In this document: piece after piece, positions 7,750 to 29,192 of the stretch
Position numbering within the stretch: position 1 is the first letter of the stretch
Layout: each line of letters opens with the position of its first letter
Virus record (IMG/VR): IMGVR_UViG_3300029448_000285
Span: 1 to 29,192 of that record
Reading direction: 5' to 3' (one strand)
DNA: 29,192 bases
DNA from: a virus
Notes under the pieces: generated by a model
Told to the model about the DNA's origin: nothing
The model's input: the letters and a program-made list of their open reading frames with translations, nothing else
Databases searched by the model: none
Program-made: the position numbers and the translations under genes

Positions 7750-7963
7750 TTCGTTTCCTTTCTTGCGCGAGGTCCCTCAAGTAGCACAGGTGCAGCAGTG
7801 TTCGTTGGATAGTCCATGCCTCTACCTGTTCGATTTTGGTGGCGTCTTCTCCGGCGAGGGTGTTGAGTGTGTGGTACCAACCGTAATGGCGTCCAACGTC
7901 GCTCTGCCCCGAGCCGCCAAGGAGCGACCCAAACTCCTGTAATAAGCTTCTTTGCCAAGGTAA
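7724..7963 (-). CDS. Tail assembly chaperone, -1 frame extension (gpGT-like T domain)
   Basis: If ribosomes slip back one base at the T9 run (7,962-7,970), translation enters this 79-codon frame and makes a fused protein of about 234 aa. The frame has no start codon of its own at its head but is clearly protein-like: YGWYHTLNTLAGEDATKIEQ followed by EAWTIQRTLLHLCYLRDLAQ. This resembles the 'GWYxxLxxLAxGDxxKxxxV...LLxLxxxKD' C-terminal domain of chaperones in this phage type. It ends in TAA at 7,724, 26 nt inside the next gene. An indel in the homopolymer would give the same picture. Confidence 0.75.
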   Translation of the reverse strand, partial: LPWQRSLLQEFGSLLGGSGQSDVGRHYGWYHTLNTLAGEDATKIEQVEAWTIQRTLLHLCYLRDLAQERKRNADRIKHR

Positions 7964-8427
7964 AAAAAAAGAACCGCCGAAGCGAGAACCTCAGCCGGTA
8001 CTTTGCGCATCCTGTCGGCCGTGAGCGGCCCGTCGTATGGTATTAGCCTCTCGCCGTACCACTTCTTTTCCACCGGTCGGTAGCAGACGGACAAAAACTT
8101 GTCGGCGCTTTTTCCTAATTCGGCCCCGAACGCCTCGAGGTCGATGTACTCCCCGGTGGACAGCTCTTCCCAATGGTCGATGAACTTGTGGTGTATGGTG
8201 TCGATTTCAATGGCGGCGTGGAACCGCGTGGGCCTAGCCGCCAAAACCGCATCCACCTGTGCCGCCGCCGCATCCACGGCCTTCTTCGGCAGTTGCTTCA
8301 GCTCGTCCACCGTGTAGTTGCTCAGAGCCGCCACCCGGGCCAACGGATTTTCGGCGTTTGATGTAGCCTTCATCCATTGACCCACGGTGAACGTTCTCCA
8401 ATCAGTCGGTATGCGAATCTTCTTCAC
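7822..8427 (-). CDS. Tail assembly chaperone, zero-frame product (gpG-like)
   Basis: The likely start is GTG at 8427, giving VKKIRIPTDWRTFTVGQWMK and overlapping datZ by 26 nt. The 201-aa product is helical with a 'FTVGQWMKATS...VAALSNYTVDELKQLP' N-terminal region, the usual start of tail assembly chaperones. After residue 155 the zero frame runs into low-complexity Pro/Ser/Arg sequence and stops at 7822, whereas the -1 frame encodes a well-formed domain. This matches the gpG/gpGT pair of lambda-like phages, in which the short and the frameshifted long forms escort the tape measure during tail assembly. Confidence 0.78.
   Translation of the reverse strand: MKKIRIPTDWRTFTVGQWMKATSNAENPLARVAALSNYTVDELKQLPKKAVDAAAAQVDAVLAARPTRFHAAIEIDTIHHKFIDHWEELSTGEYIDLEAFGAELGKSADKFLSVCYRPVEKKWYGERLIPYDGPLTADRMRKVPAEVLASAVLFFYLGKEAYYRSLGRSLAARGRATLDAITVGTTHSTPSPEKTPPKSNR
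7960..7971 (-). promoter_or_regulatory. Probable -1 frameshift slippery site (C-T9-AC)
   Basis: On the minus strand the chaperone reads CTT TTT TTT TAC, a run of nine T. Both P- and A-site tRNAs can re-pair after a one-base backward slip, and the -1 frame then stays open for 79 codons of chaperone-like sequence. Polymerase slippage on the same run could have the same effect. Confidence 0.7.
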
Positions 8428-9013
8428 GCTGCAGGGCTTCCTTCCAAAAAAACGACGACTCCTCCTCCCTTGGCGTTCTGATTCCGTCCTGCCCGAAGAG
8501 CTCGTCATCGATGGCACGGTGTATGTCGTCCCAAAGGAATTGGCCCCCCTCGAGCTTGGTAACGGCGTCGTTCAGATAAGCCGTTAGTCCACACAAAACA
8601 CCAAACACCGAGCGATTCCCGGTGCTGTACTCCTCAGCCAATTTCAATACTGCTTCTAGCAGGTCCGCCACCTTGACAATGTCGTGGGCCGCGTCCGTGT
8701 ACTCGGTCGGGGTGCCGAACCGACGCTTCATGATGTCGTCCTCGTACTCTTGCATTTTGCCCGGCGTGCTGATGACGCGCTTGACCGGTGACGGTAGGTC
8801 GCCGGACTCCACCTCGGGCAGGTCGTGCTTGAGCGCAAGGTCTACGACCTCTAGCCAATCGCCTTTGTATTTTATGGCCTCCATCACGTCCATTGCGTAC
8901 ATCGCCACTAGGGCTGTGTGCTCGAGTACCGACTGCTGCCTGTTGAGCCTCATGATGCTCCACCTTGGCACGCAACCAAGGGTGCGATAATGACGATTAA
9001 ACCTCATCTTCAT
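8402..9013 (-). CDS. datZ: DatZ-like dATP triphosphohydrolase (HD domain)
   Basis: The 203-aa product is a YfbR/DatZ-type HD phosphohydrolase. The motifs line up with E. coli YfbR: VPRWSIMRLNRQQSVLEHT (conserved RW and first metal His, H32), KHDLPEVESGDLPSPVK (HD pair H63-D64, E67) and IVKVADLLEAVLK (final metal ligand D117). In Z-genome phages DatZ removes dATP by releasing triphosphate, so that adenine is kept out of phage DNA. It follows mazZ with a 17-nt overlap (ATG 9013; ATG 9007 is an alternative) and overlaps the tail chaperone. On motif alone it could be a general 5'-deoxynucleotidase; adjacency to purZ and mazZ makes DatZ the better call. Confidence 0.88.
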   Translation of the reverse strand: MKMRFNRHYRTLGCVPRWSIMRLNRQQSVLEHTALVAMYAMDVMEAIKYKGDWLEVVDLALKHDLPEVESGDLPSPVKRVISTPGKMQEYEDDIMKRRFGTPTEYTDAAHDIVKVADLLEAVLKLAEEYSTGNRSVFGVLCGLTAYLNDAVTKLEGGQFLWDDIHRAIDDELFGQDGIRTPREEESSFFWKEALQREEDSHTD

Positions 9014-9338
9014 CTCGGGTCTGTTTGTGGTACATACGGTTGTCGTACTTGCCGTATTTCTCCGGGTTGCGCTCGTAGTACATCAGGAACATGACGTTGC
9101 ACGCGACGTGGGCGAGATGTGAAAGCTTCGATTCGTGGTCCACGGCCTCCCCGGTCTCGAACGCCTCTAGGTGCCGTTTCATCGAGTCCAACACCGTCTC
9201 GTATGTTTGGCCCTTGAACCAATTATCGCGGTCGTACTTGTTGGCTCCCATGGCGGCGACCTCGGCCACCTCGTGCGTGAATAGCGGGTCCACTAGAGAT
9301 AGGCGCGTTTTGCCTCGGTTACTTCTTTGTGCGGGCAT
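8997..9338 (-). CDS. mazZ: MazZ-like dATP/dGTP diphosphohydrolase
   Basis: The 113-aa product matches the 'dATP/dGTP diphosphohydrolase, N-terminal' family (formerly DUF5664). Visible conserved blocks are HEVAEVAAMGANKYDRDNWF, a SMKRHLEAFETGEAVDHES helix and LSHLAHVACNVMFLMYYE, with Glu/Asp/His positions typical of an all-helical MazG-like metal site. In aminoadenine phages MazZ converts dGTP to dGMP, the substrate of PurZ, and can also remove dATP. The gene overlaps the end of purZ by 20 nt and the start of datZ by 17 nt, so the three are translated as a unit. The family also occurs in phages without purZ, so the specific role rests on context. Confidence 0.85.
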   Translation of the reverse strand: MPAQRSNRGKTRLSLVDPLFTHEVAEVAAMGANKYDRDNWFKGQTYETVLDSMKRHLEAFETGEAVDHESKLSHLAHVACNVMFLMYYERNPEKYGKYDNRMYHKQTRDEDEV

Positions 9339-10407
9339 GGTGCATAGTCATTTTTACATCCGAGTGCAGCGGCCCCCAACCGGTCCATACGACCGGAACT
9401 CCGGTCAACGCTTCGATGCGCTCTACCAATTCCCACGCCGGCCCCGTGTCGCCATCTTCCTGCAGGTAGTTGCAGAAATTCAGGAAGATTCCGGTGGTCC
9501 CGTTTACCTTGACCGCCTCTTGAATCTGACGGTCCGACCACGTGAAGATGCGGCGCGGCAACTTGGTCACGGTGGTGAACTCGGTCTTTTGGCCGATTGC
9601 TTCGAACGTCGTCTCTTCTTGGTCCGGGTAGCACGGTCCGCTCCATCCGCTGTAGGTCGCGCCGTCCTTGGTGCGGTTGGCCACGCGGATTGGGTACGTC
9701 CGGCACGCGCCGTACTTGTGTTGAATCATGGCCGGGTCGAACAGGGTGTCCGATGCGAGCTGTGCCACGGTGCACTCCCTGCTTGTCGTGTACGGGTAAA
9801 ATCCGCTATGCACCCCGAGGCTATAGCCCTGTGCACCCTCCAAAGCGAGCAGCTCCGCGCCGTACAACTTGTCCATGTACTCGGCGTGGTCGCACACCCG
9901 CACCTCCACATCGGTGCCGACAATGCCGGAGATGTAGCCATGGGGGTAGAGTCGGCCGGCCGTCACGGGCACTGCCGGGTCGCGGCGAAGTCGCTCCATA
10001 ATGGCCGCGCCGCTGCCCTTTTGCGTGGAGCCAATGCGAGTGATTTCGTTGCGCTCGAATTCGCTGTGCCGGGGCTGCAACACCGTCGCGTTTTCGTGCA
10101 CCAACACTTCGATGTTGTCTTTGCACGTCCTGTTGCGCACCGCGTGGTTCAATTCTCGCAGCAGGGCGTCCACATCTAGCACGGTGGCCGGAGCAATAAG
10201 AACGGTCTTGAGCTTGGGCGACACCACGCCATTCGCGAGCATGGTGTGAATCATCTCGGTGCCGTTCGGGTGAAAGTAGGTGTGACCGGCATTAGGCATC
10301 CACGCCGTAACCACGACGTCCGGTTTCATTATCATCGCCTGAAATCCGGCTAGCAGTCCTTTCCCGGTGCTGCCGAATTGTAAATCTGTAATTGAGTAGC
10401 TTTCCAT
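9319..10407 (-). CDS. purZ: PurZ: N6-succino-2-amino-2'-deoxyadenylate synthase (Z-genome biosynthesis)
   Basis: The 362-aa product is an adenylosuccinate-synthetase homologue, shorter than bacterial PurA (about 430 aa) as PurZ enzymes are. In order: LQFGSTGKGLLAGF (residues 9-22; the P-loop that in PurA is QWGDEGKG), NAGHT with the catalytic His42, STQKGSGAAIMER, ALEGAQGYSLGVHSGFYPYT, ACRTYPIRVAN, and a C-terminal RRIFTWSDRQIQEAV...VNGTTGIFLNF region. The catalytic Asp of PurA is Ser13 here, a change reported for PurZ that helps accept dGMP. The reaction joins dGMP and aspartate using (d)ATP; host PurB and kinases then make dZTP. The ATG at 10407 starts one base after the terminase stop, giving a strong coupled start. 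Upstream in-frame ATGs would overlap terminase. Confidence 0.93.
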   Translation of the reverse strand: MESYSITDLQFGSTGKGLLAGFQAMIMKPDVVVTAWMPNAGHTYFHPNGTEMIHTMLANGVVSPKLKTVLIAPATVLDVDALLRELNHAVRNRTCKDNIEVLVHENATVLQPRHSEFERNEITRIGSTQKGSGAAIMERLRRDPAVPVTAGRLYPHGYISGIVGTDVEVRVCDHAEYMDKLYGAELLALEGAQGYSLGVHSGFYPYTTSRECTVAQLASDTLFDPAMIQHKYGACRTYPIRVANRTKDGATYSGWSGPCYPDQEETTFEAIGQKTEFTTVTKLPRRIFTWSDRQIQEAVKVNGTTGIFLNFCNYLQEDGDTGPAWELVERIEALTGVPVVWTGWGPLHSDVKMTMHHARTKK

Positions 10408-10408
10408 T

Positions 10409-11554
10409 TTATCCAAAGGTATAGGTTCCATAATTAGGCCGCTTGGCCTTCCACATCGCAATATAGCGCAAAGCGTCGATTGCGTGGTCAGGTCCTTGCG
10501 GTTTGTTTAACAGGTGGCCGTTTTTGTCTTCTATCCACCGGTAATTGCGCAGTTCTTTGATTAGATTGGTTGCGTTTGGGCTCACCCCGAGTGGGCGAGA
10601 CCGCAGATAGTCAATCCCCGCCCGCACCGAGTCTGCGCCTTTCTCGCACGGGTGGATGTTGAACTTCCTGCTGTGTATTTGGTCAATCGATTTGGGCTCT
10701 GCGGAGTCCGCCACGACCAAGTCGTTTGGAGTCACGCCCCATTCGCGCAACTCGTCTGCTATGTTGTCGTTGGTCATGCCGGTGCCGTACAGGATTTCCG
10801 ACACCCACAGTCCCCAACCGTCAGAGAAGACCGAGACCACCGCTGTCGGGTCGTTGGTGTACCCGAAGTCTAGGCCGTAGCCCAAGAAGGTGTAGCCATC
10901 GGGCATGGGGCATTCGCGCCAATGGGTCAGAATGGATGCCCTCGGCAGTCCGCGCTCACCCAATCCATACACGCGCCAATAGTTCTCGTCGACCTCCTTG
11001 AGCCGTTCAATCTCGGCCACGATGTCCTTTGACAGGAACGGATTGTCTTTGTAGGTGGTCTGAAAAAAATCTGCGTCGTCACGCGGCAGCACCTGCTCGT
11101 ATATCCAATGATACTCATCCGATGGGTTGTAGTCGATGATGACACGACCCGTGGTCCGGAGCAGCAGTTGCCGCCAATCCTCAAGGTCGAGCTCATTCGC
11201 CTCGTTGACAAACAGAACGTCGCGCTTCCGGCCTCGCACCTTTTGCGGTTGGTCGATAGACAGGAACTCCACCATATTGTCCCATAGGCGGTACGTGTTT
11301 TCCGATTTGTTGTGCAAATCCGGGTTGTACACGCCTTCGCCCTCGAGAATCTCGAAGAAGTCACGCATGGCCGTGCCCTTAAGGCTTGGCAACGTCTTCC
11401 GCACGATGGTAATGACGAGGCCGGTGTTGTAATAGCACAATTCGATAAGGCATTGGAGAATCGAATACGTCTTGCCTGAGCGCGTGCCGCCCTGATGCAC
11501 CTGCACCTTGGCATCGCTGTTCTTTACATGGTAGTATGTGGCCGGCTGCTTCAT
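10409..11554 (-). CDS. terL: Terminase large subunit
   Basis: The start is the ATG at 11554, overlapping the small-subunit stop by 4 nt. The 381-aa product has the packaging ATPase Walker A at residues 22-29 (GGTRSGKT), Walker B in DVLFVNEANELDLEDW, and a C-terminal RNase-H-like nuclease with GYGLDFGYTNDPTAVV, DLVVADSAEPKSIDQI and GPDHAIDALRY. This is the ATP-driven motor that cuts and packages concatemeric DNA. It is compact compared with many TerL proteins but all main motifs are present. It sits directly upstream of purZ in what is probably one transcript. Confidence 0.96.
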   Translation of the reverse strand: MKQPATYYHVKNSDAKVQVHQGGTRSGKTYSILQCLIELCYYNTGLVITIVRKTLPSLKGTAMRDFFEILEGEGVYNPDLHNKSENTYRLWDNMVEFLSIDQPQKVRGRKRDVLFVNEANELDLEDWRQLLLRTTGRVIIDYNPSDEYHWIYEQVLPRDDADFFQTTYKDNPFLSKDIVAEIERLKEVDENYWRVYGLGERGLPRASILTHWRECPMPDGYTFLGYGLDFGYTNDPTAVVSVFSDGWGLWVSEILYGTGMTNDNIADELREWGVTPNDLVVADSAEPKSIDQIHSRKFNIHPCEKGADSVRAGIDYLRSRPLGVSPNATNLIKELRNYRWIEDKNGHLLNKPQGPDHAIDALRYIAMWKAKRPNYGTYTFG

Positions 11555-11865
11555 TCGAACCAAGTGAGCGGTTTCTTTTGCACGGTCTCCACCTCTTGTC
11601 GCTCTACGTATCCGCGGCCCTTGCCTTTGGTCTTCAGGAAGAAGATGGTGGCGGCAGGGTTGCCGTCTTGGATGAGCTTGTGCAAGTGGGATTCGCCGAA
11701 ATCGATGGCGGACTCGGTTATCTCCTGCACGCGGCGCTTGTACTTCTCGTCTTTCATCCACCGGTAGTGGCTCACCCGGCCGATGCCGGTCGCCTTGCTC
11801 GCGGTCGTGACCACGCCCAACGAGCGCTCCAACGCAGCGAGGAATTGTTCCTGTTTTTCTGTCAT
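11551..11865 (-). CDS. terS: Terminase small subunit
   Basis: The 104-aa product starts with a helix-turn-helix (LGVVTTASKATGIGRVSHYRW) and continues with a helical oligomerisation region ending in PAATIFFLKTKGKGRGYVER, the usual pattern of helix-turn-helix small terminases. It recognises the packaging start site and delivers DNA to TerL. ATGA overlaps occur at both ends, with the ParB-like gene upstream and terL downstream. Confidence 0.9.
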   Translation of the reverse strand: MTEKQEQFLAALERSLGVVTTASKATGIGRVSHYRWMKDEKYKRRVQEITESAIDFGESHLHKLIQDGNPAATIFFLKTKGKGRGYVERQEVETVQKKPLTWFE

Positions 11866-12281
11866 AGCTTCTTACCGCATTTGTCGCAAGTCTCGGATTC
11901 GGCAGTCTCTTCTACCTGTGGCGTCCACACGTCAAGGCCCCACTCCTGCAGGGACACGGCCTCCCAATCGTTGGCCAAAAGGTCCCAATCCCATTGGCCG
12001 AACGAAACGTTGTCCTTGATGAGGAACTCCCGGCTGCGCTTGTCGTCCCAATCGGCGATGTATACCGGAACTTCGGTAATCCCTGCCTCTTTCGCCGCTC
12101 GCAATCGCATGTTGCCGCCGAGCACAACGAACTGTGGGTTAACCACTAGTGGTCGCGCCTCTAGCATCTCGGGAAACTCCTTGACGCTCTGTACCAACAC
12201 CCGGAACTTGTCAGCGCTGATTGACCGCGGGTTTTGCGGGTTGGGGCTTAACACCTCGATTGGGACTCGTTCGAACTTCAT
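11862..12281 (-). CDS. ParB/Srx-fold nuclease-domain protein, 139 aa
   Basis: The start is the ATG at 12281, overlapping the stop of the 47-aa membrane ORF by 4 nt. The N-terminal part is a ParB-like domain: VPIEVLSPNPQNPRSI, RPLVVNPQFVVLGGNMRLRA and AAKEAGITEVPVYIADWDD; the GGxxR motif is the nucleotide-binding signature of the fold. The C-terminal part ends in CDKCGKKL, a possible single zinc knuckle. Phage ParB-domain proteins often sit beside terminase genes and may assist DNA processing or methylation control. Whether this one is a CTPase, a nuclease or a DNA adaptor cannot be told from sequence. Confidence 0.85.
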   Translation of the reverse strand: MKFERVPIEVLSPNPQNPRSISADKFRVLVQSVKEFPEMLEARPLVVNPQFVVLGGNMRLRAAKEAGITEVPVYIADWDDKRSREFLIKDNVSFGQWDWDLLANDWEAVSLQEWGLDVWTPQVEETAESETCDKCGKKL

Positions 12282-12421
12282 GAAATCGCAACTCCGGTTA
12301 CTGACAACACACAGACCGCCAATTCGTCCACGGCCACTTCTTGCATGTAGTACAAACGTCGGCACATATTGATGAGAGTGAGCATGGCGATGAAAGCAAA
12401 CAGGGCCTTAGAGACTGACAT
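12278..12421 (-). CDS. Small membrane protein, 47 aa
   Basis: A short ORF lies between the Cys-rich gene and the ParB-like gene. The ATG is 14 nt inside the upstream gene and the TGA overlaps the next ATG by 4 nt, the same coupling seen throughout the genome. The N-terminal residues SKALFAFIAMLTLINM form a plausible transmembrane helix, followed by basic CRR and a second apolar stretch at the C terminus. It fills an otherwise empty 126-nt gap. Function unknown. Confidence 0.6.
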   Translation of the reverse strand: MSVSKALFAFIAMLTLINMCRRLYYMQEVAVDELAVCVLSVTGVAIS

Positions 12422-12818
12422 GAAGGGCGCGTTTCATTTCGTCTCGCATCTGCTTCAGGCACGGGCCGCACCCGGTAGTTTTGCGGTTGGTCTTGAGGAT
12501 TTCGTTACTGAGCTCCACCAACTCGTCAATCTCCGGTCTGCTGAACCTCCTTTTCCCCTCGGTGCGCTCTACAAAATCCTTGGCCTTCGCATAGGACGAT
12601 TCTGGCACGTCGCGCCCCCAAAATCCCACCGGGCAGCCCGATGCTGCTATGCGGGTCTTGACTTCCATAACGCAACCGCAGAGCTTGTATTTCTCCCCTT
12701 TGAGCTGCACGCGCTTTCCTGTGCCCAATGGGCCGCAGCTGCCGGTTGACTTTTGGTAGTATTTGCATTGGCGGCAAATGTTCATCCGCGCTTGGCTTAC
12801 CTTCCTATTTGTGAACAT
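12408..12818 (-). CDS. Cysteine-rich, probable zinc-binding phage protein, 136 aa
   Basis: The first half has a set of paired cysteines: ICRQCKYYQKSTGSC, KYKLCGCVMEVKTRI and SGCPVGFWGR, consistent with one or two zinc sites. This layout resembles a family of small Cys-rich proteins in Bacteroidota phages. The C-terminal half is helical, with TTGCGPCLKQMRDEM at the end. It overlaps the sigma-like gene by 14 nt. An alternative start is the internal ATG at 12785. A DNA or protein adaptor role near replication and packaging genes is possible but unproven. Confidence 0.75.
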   Translation of the reverse strand: MFTNRKVSQARMNICRQCKYYQKSTGSCGPLGTGKRVQLKGEKYKLCGCVMEVKTRIAASGCPVGFWGRDVPESSYAKAKDFVERTEGKRRFSRPEIDELVELSNEILKTNRKTTGCGPCLKQMRDEMKRALHVSL

Positions 12819-13278
12819 CGAAATGCGTTTTCAGTGTTTTGTGTGTCTTTCTCAGGCTGTAGTATATCGTGCCTATCGGTATCCCGCTCTCCTCGGCTAG
12901 CTCTGTCATCGACTGCCCCTGCAGCCTCAACTCGAACAGCGTCTTGTCGAACCAAGGCAGCCGGCGCACCACTAGGTCGATGTACTCACGTAAAAAAACG
13001 ATTGTCATATCATCCTCGGCCGGCAAATCGACCTCGGGGTGGTCTAGTATTTTGTACATCCGGGCGAATTTGCCCGTCTTGGCTTGTCTAAATAGAGCGA
13101 GGATGTGGTACCCCCACGGCTTGCCATCTAATATGGCCTGTAGGTGCGGCAGGTCTCGAATCCTCAGGTACACCGTGTGCAGAAGGTCGTGCGGGTCTCT
13201 GTGGTACCGACGCGCGTACTTCATCAAACCGCCGTAATTTGCGGTTATCCACCGGTCGTATTGGTCCTTAGGCTCCAA
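12805..13278 (-). CDS. Sigma-70-like transcription regulator
   Basis: The 157-aa product (from a TTG start at 13278) has two sigma-factor-like parts: a region-2-like helical segment (YARRYHRDPHDLLHTVYLRI) and a region-4-like helix-turn-helix (SMTELAEESGIPIGTIYYSL followed by RKTHKTLKTHF). No ATG lies before the region-2 homology, so a TTG or other rare start is required; TTG 13278 overlaps the NinG stop by 11 nt. Placed just before terminase and the structural genes, it is a good candidate for switching host RNA polymerase to late promoters. Confidence 0.78.
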   Translation of the reverse strand: MEPKDQYDRWITANYGGLMKYARRYHRDPHDLLHTVYLRIRDLPHLQAILDGKPWGYHILALFRQAKTGKFARMYKILDHPEVDLPAEDDMTIVFLREYIDLVVRRLPWFDKTLFELRLQGQSMTELAEESGIPIGTIYYSLRKTHKTLKTHFDVHK

Positions 13279-13675
13279 GCTTTCTTGCCTCGTGCCGATA
13301 GTGCTCAAGTATTTCCTCCAATTCCTCAATCGAGTATTTGCGCATCTCCTTTGACATCCGCACCAACTCGTCCGCCGTGCCTTCTCCGTAAACGCGGTCA
13401 AGCTCTTGAGCGAATTTGTACTGCTCACCGCTGCGGAATCCGTTGCACGGCTTACACTGAAACTGCACATTGAGCTCGTGCCACCTAGTAGACATCGCCG
13501 CCCTGCTCATGAAATGGCCGGCATCGACCTCCTTCCAATGCTTGGTGGCACCGCAGGTGAAACAGGTAGCGTAGCCACGACTATCGGCATTTCTCAGCCG
13601 GACGTATCGAGAGAATTCCCGGTCAATCGCCTTCTTCAGCACGTTTCGTGGTCTCTTTTTTTTTGATTTCGCCAA
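13268..13675 (-). CDS. ninG: NinG/Rap-like recombination protein
   Basis: The product (135 aa from TTG 13675; GTG 13642 would give 124 aa) has a basic N terminus and the lambda NinG signature: TCFTCGATKHW with Cys38/Cys41, DAGHFMSR with His54, RWHELNVQFQCKPCNGFRSG with Cys74/Cys77, and a helical tail. NinG (Rap) is a Holliday-junction/D-loop endonuclease with an HNH-like zinc fold that helps recombination-dependent replication. The start region overlaps the upstream gene across an A9 tract. No ATG is available near the N terminus. Confidence 0.85.
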   Translation of the reverse strand: MAKSKKKRPRNVLKKAIDREFSRYVRLRNADSRGYATCFTCGATKHWKEVDAGHFMSRAAMSTRWHELNVQFQCKPCNGFRSGEQYKFAQELDRVYGEGTADELVRMSKEMRKYSIEELEEILEHYRHEARKLGA

Positions 13676-14100: not shown

Positions 14101-14745
14101 TCACTGAGAAGCCCAATCGTTGAGGGCCTGATGGTCGAATCCCGGGTCAACTCGTTTTTTAGACTTGCGGTCAAAGAAAATGCCTTGGTATCCATTGGCT
14201 ATGCTGTTGTTGATTGCCGCAATCGCGGCGGCCATGTCGCCACCCGACTCGGCCTGCAGTTTGTGCAACGCGGCCTGTTCACCACGCTGCGTATATTTTT
14301 TTATTCTCCGTTCTGCTCGGTCCGTTTTCCATGTGGCCCAAACCGACCTGAACTCCTCGCAATCCCAAGGGTAGAGGATTTGTTCCTTGGTTTGGGTATT
14401 TGTTTTTTTCTTCGGTAAGACGTGCCTATCAGACAGGAACTCCGTGCCGCTCAGGTCGGCAGCGCGTGCCGGGTTGCTCGGCAGGAGAGAGCATAAGTAG
14501 CGCTTGCGTCCGTCGAACCCGCTGCGCTCCACTAGGCCAAGCTCGACCAAGTGGGCAAGGCTCTTTCGCACCGTTCGTTGCGCGATACCCACGAATTCCG
14601 ACAGATGCCGGTCGCTAACGAAACAGGGTTGGTCTCGCTGCGTGAACGAGTCGATTTCCATCAACACTATCTTGTCATACCAAGTCATCCGGTCGTCCTC
14701 CCAAACCTCACGCGGTATCCAAATTCCCTTCCAATCTCTCGGCAT
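14101..14745 (-). CDS. Replication initiator-like protein (winged helix + DnaD-like C-terminus)
   Basis: The N-terminal ~100 residues form a winged helix typical of DnaD/RepA-type initiators: IWIPREVWEDDRMTWYDKIV, CFVSDRHLSEFVGIAQRTVR and KSLAHLVELGLVERSG. The C-terminal part (EEFRSVWATWKTDR and MAAAIAAINNSIANGYQGIF) matches the helical region that in many phage initiators ends with 'SIANGWxGLF'. It probably binds the origin and recruits the host helicase. It is the only obvious replication gene; no polymerase, primase or helicase was found. Confidence 0.82.
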   Translation of the reverse strand: MPRDWKGIWIPREVWEDDRMTWYDKIVLMEIDSFTQRDQPCFVSDRHLSEFVGIAQRTVRKSLAHLVELGLVERSGFDGRKRYLCSLLPSNPARAADLSGTEFLSDRHVLPKKKTNTQTKEQILYPWDCEEFRSVWATWKTDRAERRIKKYTQRGEQAALHKLQAESGGDMAAAIAAINNSIANGYQGIFFDRKSKKRVDPGFDHQALNDWASQ

Positions 14746-16305: not shown

Positions 16306-16613
16306 TCGTTCGGGGTTGTGAGTATCACGTGGGCGAGCTCGTAGAACCGTACGTCGAGCTTGCGCTTTCGAACGTCGGACCAACACGACCACTCTTCGAT
16401 GTTCATTTCATGCTCGAGGTAGCGGGCCACGAGACCGAGCAAATAACCCGGTTCGCGGCTGCGCGTTCTCTCTTCTTTCTCCAAACGCGCCCGCAGCGCT
16501 TGGTTTGTAGGGTCATCGTTGCAAATGTGCCTGTAGGCAGCGGCCGTGTCTTGGGTGCTGAACCCGTCCACGCCTCTGTAGTAGTAGGTGCGGTTGAAAT
16601 TCCAATGTCCCAT
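16302..16613 (-). CDS. Hypothetical early protein, 103 aa
   Basis: The product (MGHWNFNRTYYYRGVDGFST...) has an aromatic N terminus, a charged helix (LRARLEKEERTRSREPGYLL) and a C-terminal helical region (SDVRKRKLDVRFYELAHVIL). It shares one base with the previous gene's stop. No family recognised. Confidence 0.68.
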   Translation of the reverse strand: MGHWNFNRTYYYRGVDGFSTQDTAAAYRHICNDDPTNQALRARLEKEERTRSREPGYLLGLVARYLEHEMNIEEWSCWSDVRKRKLDVRFYELAHVILTTPNE

Positions 16614-17320
16614 CAGTCCTCTTTTTTGGGGGTGAGCAATTCAGTGATGCGCTCGGCCTGTCGGACGACCTCGATGTCGGCGTGCATCGCCTTGAGTGGG
16701 CATTCTTCCTCGAAGGTGAGGTCTTCGCGCCAAGTGGCCACCATGCTGTAGGCCGTGGTGCACGCCACCGACTCGTAGTCGTTGCCGCTCTCGACGCCGT
16801 AGTAGTACCTACGCTCGCCGTTATGCGCATCCACCGCATCTCGGTCCTCAGACTTAAGGACGAGGTCGAAGGTGAACAGGTCGCGCTCAAGGGAATCGCG
16901 AACCTCGATGGCGTCTGCTACGTATTGCGGGTCGGCCGGGTCGTCGTCGCCCAAGTAGATTGCACCGCGCGGAGATTCGTGCGCCTTTGGCGTGTAAAGG
17001 TTCTCGGCACGGGCCTCTTGCCACCACGCCGCAACAAGGCGGCGGGTGAATTGGCAGTCATTGGTGATGCCGTTGGCCATCAGGAATTGGACCGCGTTGG
17101 CGCGCATTTGCCACCCGGTACGACCGGGCCACTCGGCCCGGAAGTACTCGTTCAGGCGTCGCGCCCAATCTGGCCACGGCGTGTGCCACCGCCCGTGGGC
17201 TTGGCCCTTGCGCGGGTCGAACTCAGGATGGAAGGGGAACGGGTTGTGGGTGATGCCAACCGGGGCGCCGTCGTAAATCATCGGTTCCTTGGGAACGTTG
17301 ATAAGTTTGGTCACTCGCAT
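16613..17320 (-). CDS. Hypothetical early protein, 235 aa
   Basis: Either ATG 17320 (sharing one base with the preceding stop) or GTG 17323 could start it. The N-terminal half is rich in Pro, Trp and Arg (FHPEFDPRKGQAHGRW, WPDWARRLNEYFRAEW), and the C-terminal part is acidic (AIYLGDDDPADPQYVADAIE, FTFDLVLKSEDRDAVDAHNG). No enzyme signature was recognised. It is the largest gene in the early block and the second gene downstream of the promoter at 17,781-17,811, so it is a candidate host-takeover protein. Confidence 0.72.
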   Translation of the reverse strand: MRVTKLINVPKEPMIYDGAPVGITHNPFPFHPEFDPRKGQAHGRWHTPWPDWARRLNEYFRAEWPGRTGWQMRANAVQFLMANGITNDCQFTRRLVAAWWQEARAENLYTPKAHESPRGAIYLGDDDPADPQYVADAIEVRDSLERDLFTFDLVLKSEDRDAVDAHNGERRYYYGVESGNDYESVACTTAYSMVATWREDLTFEEECPLKAMHADIEVVRQAERITELLTPKKED

Positions 17321-17754
17321 CACTTGGCGTCGTTTTCAGGTGCAACTTCAGTGGACTCGGTCTCCTCGACCTTGGGAGTGGTCGGCGGCAGCATCAGGTC
17401 GACGAAATTCTTGGCCGCCCAATCCCGCAGGAGGGTCATGCAGTCGTCTTCGGCTTGGTCGCTCCACTCGGTCTTGAGGATTTCGATGTCGCTGCCGTCG
17501 ATTTCGGCCGTGGTGTCGATTTCTCCTTCGATGTGGACACCGAGTCCGCGCCACGAGTTGCCGACTTCTTCGTCGATGTTCACGGTCACTTCCACTTCTT
17601 GGTCTTGGACCTTAGTGTAGGCTTGGCCTAGCGTCCATCCGACCTTCATGATGGCCATGGCGTCGTCGATGGCAATTTGGGTGATGTTGGCCTCTTGGGC
17701 CTCGATTTCCGTGGCGAGTGCACGGAGCTTGGTGGTGATGTCAGACAATTTCAT
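17320..17754 (-). CDS. Hypothetical early acidic protein, 144 aa
   Basis: First gene after the promoter at 17,781-17,811. The ATG follows an AT-rich leader with a tandem TAATTGAT/TATTTGAC element and no Shine-Dalgarno. The product starts with a helix (MKLSDITTKLRALATEIEAQ), continues with strands in EVEVTVNIDEEVGNSW and GVHIEGEIDTTAEIDGSDIE, and ends in an acidic, disordered-looking tail rich in Glu and Thr. Function unknown; strongly acidic early proteins are often host-directed inhibitors, but this is only a hint. Confidence 0.75.
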   Translation of the reverse strand: MKLSDITTKLRALATEIEAQEANITQIAIDDAMAIMKVGWTLGQAYTKVQDQEVEVTVNIDEEVGNSWRGLGVHIEGEIDTTAEIDGSDIEILKTEWSDQAEDDCMTLLRDWAAKNFVDLMLPPTTPKVEETESTEVAPENDAK

Positions 17755-28172: not shown

Positions 28173-29192
28173 AATCGTGCTTTGTCTTCGAGTGCTTGCG
28201 CCAACGCGTCGGCGTCTTGAATTTCTTGGTTGACCACGTAGGCCCGGATACCCCCTGCCTGCTCGGCCTGTTGTTGTAGGAATGACAAGTCAAATCCTTG
28301 GACTTGGAATCCCTCCGACCCGCCGCGACCGAAACCGCCCGGCTCGTTCACGTCGGCGTCAAACCCGCCCCCATCGAATTTTTGTCGGCTGATGGCTATA
28401 ACCTGTGCCGCACCCTGTGCCGCGGCGAATGCCGCCTTAGCAAAGTTGGCCCCCGTCAACGCATCCTGCGGCACGGCAAGTTGGGCGGTAACGGCAGACG
28501 CTGTGTTCATTATGGCTTGCCCCTTCTGCAGGGCCTGATTGCGCTTAAATTGCTTTCGGGCGTCTCGCTCTGTCTCGGCCTCCTGCGCGTTGCCTAACGT
28601 ATCAATGATGTCAAGCAGTGCCGTGCCGTATTCGACGGCCGCGTTTATCTGCTGTTCCTGAAGCGACGCGTCTGCTTCGGCCTGCGTCTTGGCGCGGATG
28701 CCCTGATATCTCTCTCGTACCGCCTGCAATTCCTCCTCATTGGCACCAAGCTTCTGGAGGTCTTCAAGGTGTTGCTTTTCCTCAAGGGCTAACTCCTTCA
28801 TGCGCTGTTGTAGTTGGGCCTGAATCGAATCCTGAACTAACTGTGCGTCGAGGTCGCGCATGGTCGCCTCTCTCTCTTCCCTTATCTCCTTGTCCTCCTT
28901 GGCAAACTCGGTTTCGAGGTTGGCCCGTTGTTGGGCGTAATAATTGCGCAGGGCCTGCTTCTCTTCTTCGGTGGCTTGCAGTAAGGTCAGTTCACGCAAC
29001 GCGTCCTGTTCATCTATCCGCAATTCTTCGCGTTGGACCTCCCTTTGGGCCTCAATCTCGTCCTTGGCCGCCGACAACCGGGCATCCCGAACCATTTCGG
29101 CAATGTCGCGTTTGCGCTCCAACTCCTCTTGGTCGAGGTCGTATGAATCATTCGCATAATCTCGTGCCAACTGCGCCGCTTCACCCTCCAAA
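28169..29192 (-). CDS. Tape measure protein, C-terminal part (gene begins at 1175)
   Basis: C-terminal part of the 705-aa tape measure (bases 29,112-29,192 repeat 1-81). It is strongly helical and charged, followed by NAQEAETERDARKQFKRNQA and ALQKGQAIMNTASAVTAQL, a 'AL...AqaIxxtxxaxxAal' region typical of the C-terminal end of Bacteroidota phage tape measures, then a Gly-rich FDGGGFDADVNEPGGFGRGG linker and a helical tail. A 4-nt overlap links it to the prohead protease gene. Confidence 0.85.
   Translation of the reverse strand, partial: LEGEAAQLARDYANDSYDLDQEELERKRDIAEMVRDARLSAAKDEIEAQREVQREELRIDEQDALRELTLLQATEEEKQALRNYYAQQRANLETEFAKEDKEIREEREATMRDLDAQLVQDSIQAQLQQRMKELALEEKQHLEDLQKLGANEEELQAVRERYQGIRAKTQAEADASLQEQQINAAVEYGTALLDIIDTLGNAQEAETERDARKQFKRNQALQKGQAIMNTASAVTAQLAVPQDALTGANFAKAAFAAAQGAAQVIAISRQKFDGGGFDADVNEPGGFGRGGSEGFQVQGFDLSFLQQQAEQAGGIRAYVVNQEIQDADALAQALEDKARL
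29112..29192. repeat. 81-bp terminal direct repeat, right copy (circular contig overlap)
   Basis: Exact copy of bases 1-81; see the left copy. Joining 29,111 to 1 restores a single 705-codon tape-measure gene. Confidence 0.95.

Follow-up and report, generated by a model that had tools for sequence, protein, structure and literature searches.

The IMG/VR record IMGVR_UViG_3300029448_000285 (29,192 nt), which was analyzed over its full length and is referred to here as the window, is a whole virus record and a complete genome. It belongs to a phage almost certainly of Bacteroidota, whose DNA, we propose, probably contains 2-aminoadenine (Z) in place of adenine (A), produced with the aid of PurZ, a DUF5664 protein, and DatZ, and copied by the host replicase. 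What appears to be new, on the basis of sequence comparisons, is that phages of one Bacteroidota lineage carry PurZ in a cassette where a lone DUF5664 protein takes the place expected for MazZ, and that no polymerase is recognizable in the complete genome. A stronger proposal, which we make tentatively, is that this lineage could maintain fully Z-substituted genomes without a polymerase of its own, using three small enzymes (DUF5664 acting as MazZ) and an unmodified host replicase.

The two ends of the record are identical over 81 bp, and a 725-aa tape-measure-like ORF is continuous across the joined ends; the genome is thus complete and circularly assembled (29,111 bp), and its reading as a fragment was rejected. 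The features that are relevant to this analysis are as follows.

1 to 81, no strand: end identity, copy 1 (identical to 29112-29192)
7822 to 8424, minus strand: other border of the insertion slot (gene found directly after TerL in cassette-free relatives)
8402 to 9013, minus strand: datZ, 203 aa, predicted HD-domain dATP triphosphohydrolase (PF12917, phrog_7076; residues kept)
8997 to 9338, minus strand: lone DUF5664 (PF18909, 100 bits), 113 aa, in the MazZ slot; likely a dATP/dGTP pyrophosphohydrolase by analogy with the DUF5664 protein of phage Wayne
9319 to 10407, minus strand: purZ, 362 aa, predicted succino-2-amino-dAMP synthase (NF038379, motif, pocket residues, trees)
10409 to 11560, minus strand: terminase large subunit (TerL), Bacteroidota type, directly upstream of purZ (PF04466, phrog_2)
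11551 to 11865, minus strand: terminase small subunit (phrog_4044, weak match; conserved with TerL in relatives)
14101 to 14745, minus strand: replication initiator/O-like protein (phrog_270 and others, HTH_36)
29112 to 29192, no strand: end identity, copy 2 (the tape-measure ORF crosses the join)

The three overlapping genes reported in the first-pass annotation were all found at their coordinates on the minus strand, where they follow TerL in the order 9319-10407, 8997-9338, and 8402-9013, with overlaps of 20 bp (9319-9338) and 17 bp (8997-9013). Searches against Pfam, NCBIfam, and PHROGs named their products as PurZ, a dATP/dGTP diphosphohydrolase N-terminal domain, and a YfbR-like protein/dATP triphosphohydrolase, respectively, with matches far above chance (PurZ, E=9e-94; PF18909, E=6e-29; PF12917, E=1e-18; PHROG dATP triphosphohydrolase, E=2e-23). 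The site without the cassette is represented in five relatives (L024, L025, L026, L028, and L032), in which the homologue of the 7822 gene lies directly after TerL. This slot is variable among cassette-free relatives (L015, L016, L017, L019, L020, L022, and L023), being either empty or occupied by small ORFs without assignment that span 0.4 to 1.8 kb. A ParB-N-like protein (11862-12365, minus strand) and a weak sigma-70 region-4-like protein (12805-13470, minus strand), both encoded upstream of the terminase genes, are also conserved in relatives.

The 9319-10407 protein scored 314 bits against the PurZ model NF038379 (E=9e-94), for which the curated cutoff is 300 bits. The same model gave no match above the cutoff in 395 Bacteroidota genomes, so cellular PurA fails it. 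The best solved relative was the PurZ of cyanophage S-2L (7odx). Aligned with PurA and with the PurZ and PurZ0 of phages, the protein showed the motif GSTGKG, in which Ser replaces Asp13, the catalytic residue in PurA; the pocket residues V242, TTVT, N310, and N313 were kept. The residues of PurZ that bind dGMP and ATP (PMC8342488) were either kept or showed substitutions that also occur in other PurZs (F for Y21, T for C204, and N for Q308). In the maximum-likelihood tree, the protein was placed within PurZ (99/96), apart from PurZ0 and PurA. Judging from motif, residues, and trees, it is a true PurZ; grouping with PurA had been named beforehand as the result that would speak against the assignment, and identity as PurA was rejected on the same three grounds.

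The 8402-9013 protein matched the YfbR-like family PF12917 (E=1e-18) and the PHROG dATP triphosphohydrolase family (E=2e-23). All positions of the HD site (H34, H66, D67, E70, and D119; S-2L numbering) were retained, in agreement with the intact site noted earlier. Also retained were R19, K81, and K116, which contact the phosphates, W20, which serves in sugar exclusion, and I22, which excludes the 2-amino group (PMC8065100); A32, a conserved structural position according to the same study, is replaced by Leu. By its matches and residues, this protein is a DatZ in which the metal, phosphate, and base-specificity residues are kept.

The middle gene had been labeled mazZ, a name that we withdraw. 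The 8997-9338 protein matched PF18909 (100 bits, E=6e-29), the family named DUF5664 in PMC12884076, and contains all of the conserved DUF5664 positions (K, Y, W, R-H, D, and H), but it consists of DUF5664 alone; it is not MazZ because the defining DUF550/MazG-like domain is absent. Neither a DUF550/MazG-like nor a MazZ-2 domain was found anywhere in the genome with profiles that were built here and that match most other PurZ loci (a search of the window with PF04447 gave no match, nor did its control). At the other loci compared, the MazZ slot was occupied by DUF5664 fused to DUF550 (SH-Ab 15497, PMBT28, L003, and L005) or by DUF550 alone (S-2L, L004, and L007). The DUF5664 of PurZ phages is distinguished as DUF5664-2 from that of PurZ0 phages in PMC12884076. 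In the DUF5664 tree, the 8997-9338 protein fell on the side of the fused domains of PurZ phages (98/95), a side that also includes the domain from Maribacter phage Panino, which is not a Z phage. Its AlphaFold2 model was confident (pLDDT 89; folded from alignment A6, from which one out-of-frame L318 range was left out) and resembled the proteins of SH-Ab 15497 and PMBT28 (TM 0.88 and 0.85, respectively). No solved structure resembled the model at E<0.001, the MazZ of S-2L being a weak match only (TM 0.36), and a single-sequence scan of viral contigs with the DUF5664 protein gave no match. A small number of further PurZ contigs, the majority having PolA, likewise contained DUF5664 without DUF550; this combination is thus not by itself unique to this lineage. 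In seven contigs (L253, L258, L266, L268, L273, L281, and L318), PurZ, DUF5664, and DatZ occurred in other gene orders, mostly with PolA, and neither DUF550 nor MazZ-2 was detected there.

Several markers indicate that the phage almost certainly infects Bacteroidota. Among the best isolate records for TerL, 24 of 25 were phages of Bacteroides, Parabacteroides, or Phocaeicola (the remaining one, from human feces, was unassigned); all five records matching the portal protein were Nonlabens or Bacteroides phages; and all nine TerL relatives in genome contigs belonged to Bacteroidota MAGs. Their agreement bears out the Bacteroidota-type affiliation proposed from the first reading. Shine-Dalgarno-like motifs preceded only 5 of 29 genes, and few such motifs fit Bacteroidota. 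No full site of the Bacteroidota promoter motif (TTTG/TAnnTTTG) was found in the window, and the amidase, with matches from mixed hosts, was discarded as an uninformative host marker. No Bacteroidota phage was present among the organism names listed for the PurZ-bearing records, of which 197 matched, and we found no Bacteroidota Z phage in the open-access literature. Z phages of Pseudomonadota, Cyanobacteriota, and Actinomycetota are listed in PMC12884076; since these phyla do not include Bacteroidota, the host range of Z-DNA genes is wider, as had been anticipated.

Alignment scans of viral contigs with PurZ and DatZ recovered three sister phages in four records (L130; L131/L132, which are two records of one phage; and L133). 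All have the same type of TerL, followed in the same order and slot by PurZ, a lone DUF5664, and DatZ, and no PolA was found in the contig stretches covered. In L130 and L131/L132, synteny runs from the sigma-like gene through TerL and the cassette to the 7822 gene; in L130 and L132 it also takes in the replication initiator, which the sister phages share at 58% identity. The PurZs of the sister phages and of the window formed one clade (99/96). The cassette holders are a lineage and not a one-off case. No Z genes were detected in the stretches covered for the other TerL relatives (80 viral contigs and 9 genome contigs). In the best TerL tree, the holders lay within a clade together with cassette-free relatives and did not form one clade, although a single clade of holders was not rejected (AU p 0.067); the cassette may have been gained once and then lost, or may have been transferred later.

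Two other PurZ-like proteins were observed. Two Bacteroidota genomes (L348 in G043 and L349 in G027) encode a chromosomal protein of approximately 550 aa that combines an N-terminal P-loop kinase-like part with a PurZ/PurA-like domain; this fusion has GSEGKG (Ser for the Asp of PurA) and scored 217 to 224 bits against the PurZ model, and a normal PurA was matched besides it in G027. Bacillus phage vB_BpsS-140 (L111) has a PurZ-like protein that also contains GSEGKG and whose position in the tree is intermediate between PurZ0 and PurZ, and no DatZ, DUF5664, or DUF550 was present in the stretch examined.

The three genes had been described as the whole phage-specific part of the known Z pathway, which is too broad: a Z-selective polymerase, carried by nearly all PurZ phages, is missing. 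No match to DNA_pol_A (PF00476), DNA_pol_B (PF00136), or Prim-Pol (PF09250) was found in the whole window, while the controls matched; no Z-selective PolA (DpoZ) was found in the complete genome; and Pfam and PHROGs searches over the genome recognized no polymerase, primase, or helicase. The replication initiator/O-like gene (14101-14745) was the only replication protein recognized. PolA lies near PurZ in most other PurZ loci, and the Z phages known at the time of PMC8342488 all had PolA except S-2L, which has PrimPol.

Selection against A-containing restriction sites would be expected to cease in a genome that carries Z in place of A. In an exploratory comparison of related loci, made without phylogenetic correction, A-containing six-base palindromes were hardly avoided in the four cassette holders (observed/expected ratio, 0.85 to 0.95) but strongly so in cassette-free TerL relatives (0.47 to 0.73; 19 loci). 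G+C content was similar for most of the holders and cassette-free relatives compared, and nonpalindromic control words gave ratios of about 1 in both. In 108 other PurZ loci, the ratio was 0.82 for A-containing and 0.49 for GC-only palindromes, a larger gap than in the loci without PurZ (0.60/0.50 and 0.72/0.61). GC-only palindromes were relaxed as well (0.88) in the Bacteroidota holders, so the footprint is not A-specific in this clade and the host restriction repertoire could also explain it. The pattern is nevertheless what Z would produce, and it represents a possible sequence footprint of Z-DNA.

According to the proposed mechanism, PurZ would form succino-2-amino-dAMP from dGMP, aspartate, and ATP, and host PurB and kinases would complete dZTP. 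The lone DUF5664 protein would cleave dGTP (and dATP) to monophosphates, thus supplying dGMP, and DatZ would destroy dATP. The host replicase would then copy the genome from the dATP-emptied pool, such that the composition of the pool, rather than a Z-selective polymerase, would determine which base is incorporated. We infer copying by the host replicase because no phage polymerase is recognizable. It is a reasonable assumption, since E. coli DNA acquires Z when the Z-cluster is supplied on its own and Klenow accepts A and Z indiscriminately (PMC8342488).

Since nearly all other PurZ phages have PolA, its absence might leave the substitution partial. The cassette would then shift the nucleotide pool, and the genome would be a mixture of A and Z, as in E. 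coli, where replacement by means of the S-2L Z-cluster was incomplete and reached approximately 12% Z for plasmids and 4% for the chromosome (PMC8342488). We consider this outcome unlikely: S-2L is fully substituted even though its PrimPol is not Z-selective (PMC8065100), DatZ and DUF5664 should together deplete dATP, and the avoidance of palindromes has nearly disappeared. It seems highly improbable that full substitution is the work of a phage polymerase that escaped recognition through divergence. Many small proteins of this genome are unassigned, and several of 120 to 240 aa (e.g., those encoded at 16613-17323 and 17320-17754) have no family match and could be proposed for this role, but the unassigned proteins are small apart from the tail-region genes, the searches for PolA, PolB, and PrimPol were negative with matching controls, and relatives measuring 12 to 33 kb likewise show no PolA.

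The function of the middle gene allows for another reading, namely, that DUF5664 removes only dATP (or dUTP) and that dGMP comes from host turnover. The lone DUF5664 of Arthrobacter phage Wayne, which hydrolyzes dATP, dGTP, and dUTP to monophosphates in vitro, is approximately tenfold faster on dATP than on dGTP (PMC12884076), and this preference, along with the use of dUTP, makes such a reading worth considering. It is nonetheless the less probable one to us; in each of the four phages, the gene sits where MazZ would be expected, with purZ and datZ on either side, and dATP is already removed by DatZ. The Wayne enzyme does cleave dGTP to the monophosphate, which makes dGMP supply plausible, and by this analogy the role first proposed for the 8997-9338 protein probably stands. 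It is also very unlikely that the cassette manages the nucleotide pool of an ordinary A-containing phage without base replacement: lone DUF5664 proteins and HD hydrolases do occur in non-Z phages, whereas no other role has been described for a PurZ whose dGMP pocket is kept, and PurZ and DatZ occur together in conserved order across lineages. Most TerL relatives lack the cassette, as would be expected had misassembly attached it to the contig of a Bacteroidota phage; the chance of this is negligible, and a chimera was ruled out by the independent sister contigs, in which the same junctions appear with diverged sequence (three other phages in four separate records).

The reading that we prefer, a Z genome copied by the host replicase, would add Bacteroidota, a phylum prominent among gut and marine bacteria, to the host phyla of Z phages. 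A complete candidate Z phage with no recognizable polymerase makes the need for a Z-selective polymerase directly testable, and a cassette of approximately 2 kb without MazZ offers a small candidate set of genes for laboratory production of Z-DNA. The palindrome footprint suggests a way to seek base substitution from sequence alone.

Nonlabens phage P12024S has related portal and head genes, with no Z genes annotated in the stretch examined, and Bacteroides and Parabacteroides gut phages have a related TerL; all of these were absent among the PurZ matches listed. Acinetobacter phage SH-Ab 15497 and Salmonella phage PMBT28 share the order of PurZ (45% identical to that of the window), a DUF5664-containing protein, and DatZ, but they have a DUF5664-DUF550 fusion (MazZ) and PolA just upstream, whereas the window has a lone DUF5664 and no polymerase was recognized. 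Cyanophage S-2L resembles the window in its purZ-mazZ-datZ order, in the overlapping or abutting arrangement of these genes near a terminase gene, and in lacking PolA; it differs in its DUF550-type MazZ, its own PrimPol, and its cyanobacterial host. A counterpart of the middle gene is DUF5664-1 of Arthrobacter phage Wayne (a PurZ0 phage), likewise a lone DUF5664, for which hydrolysis was measured (PMC12884076); Wayne combines it with PurZ0, DutZ, and DmtZ, while the window combines it with PurZ and DatZ.
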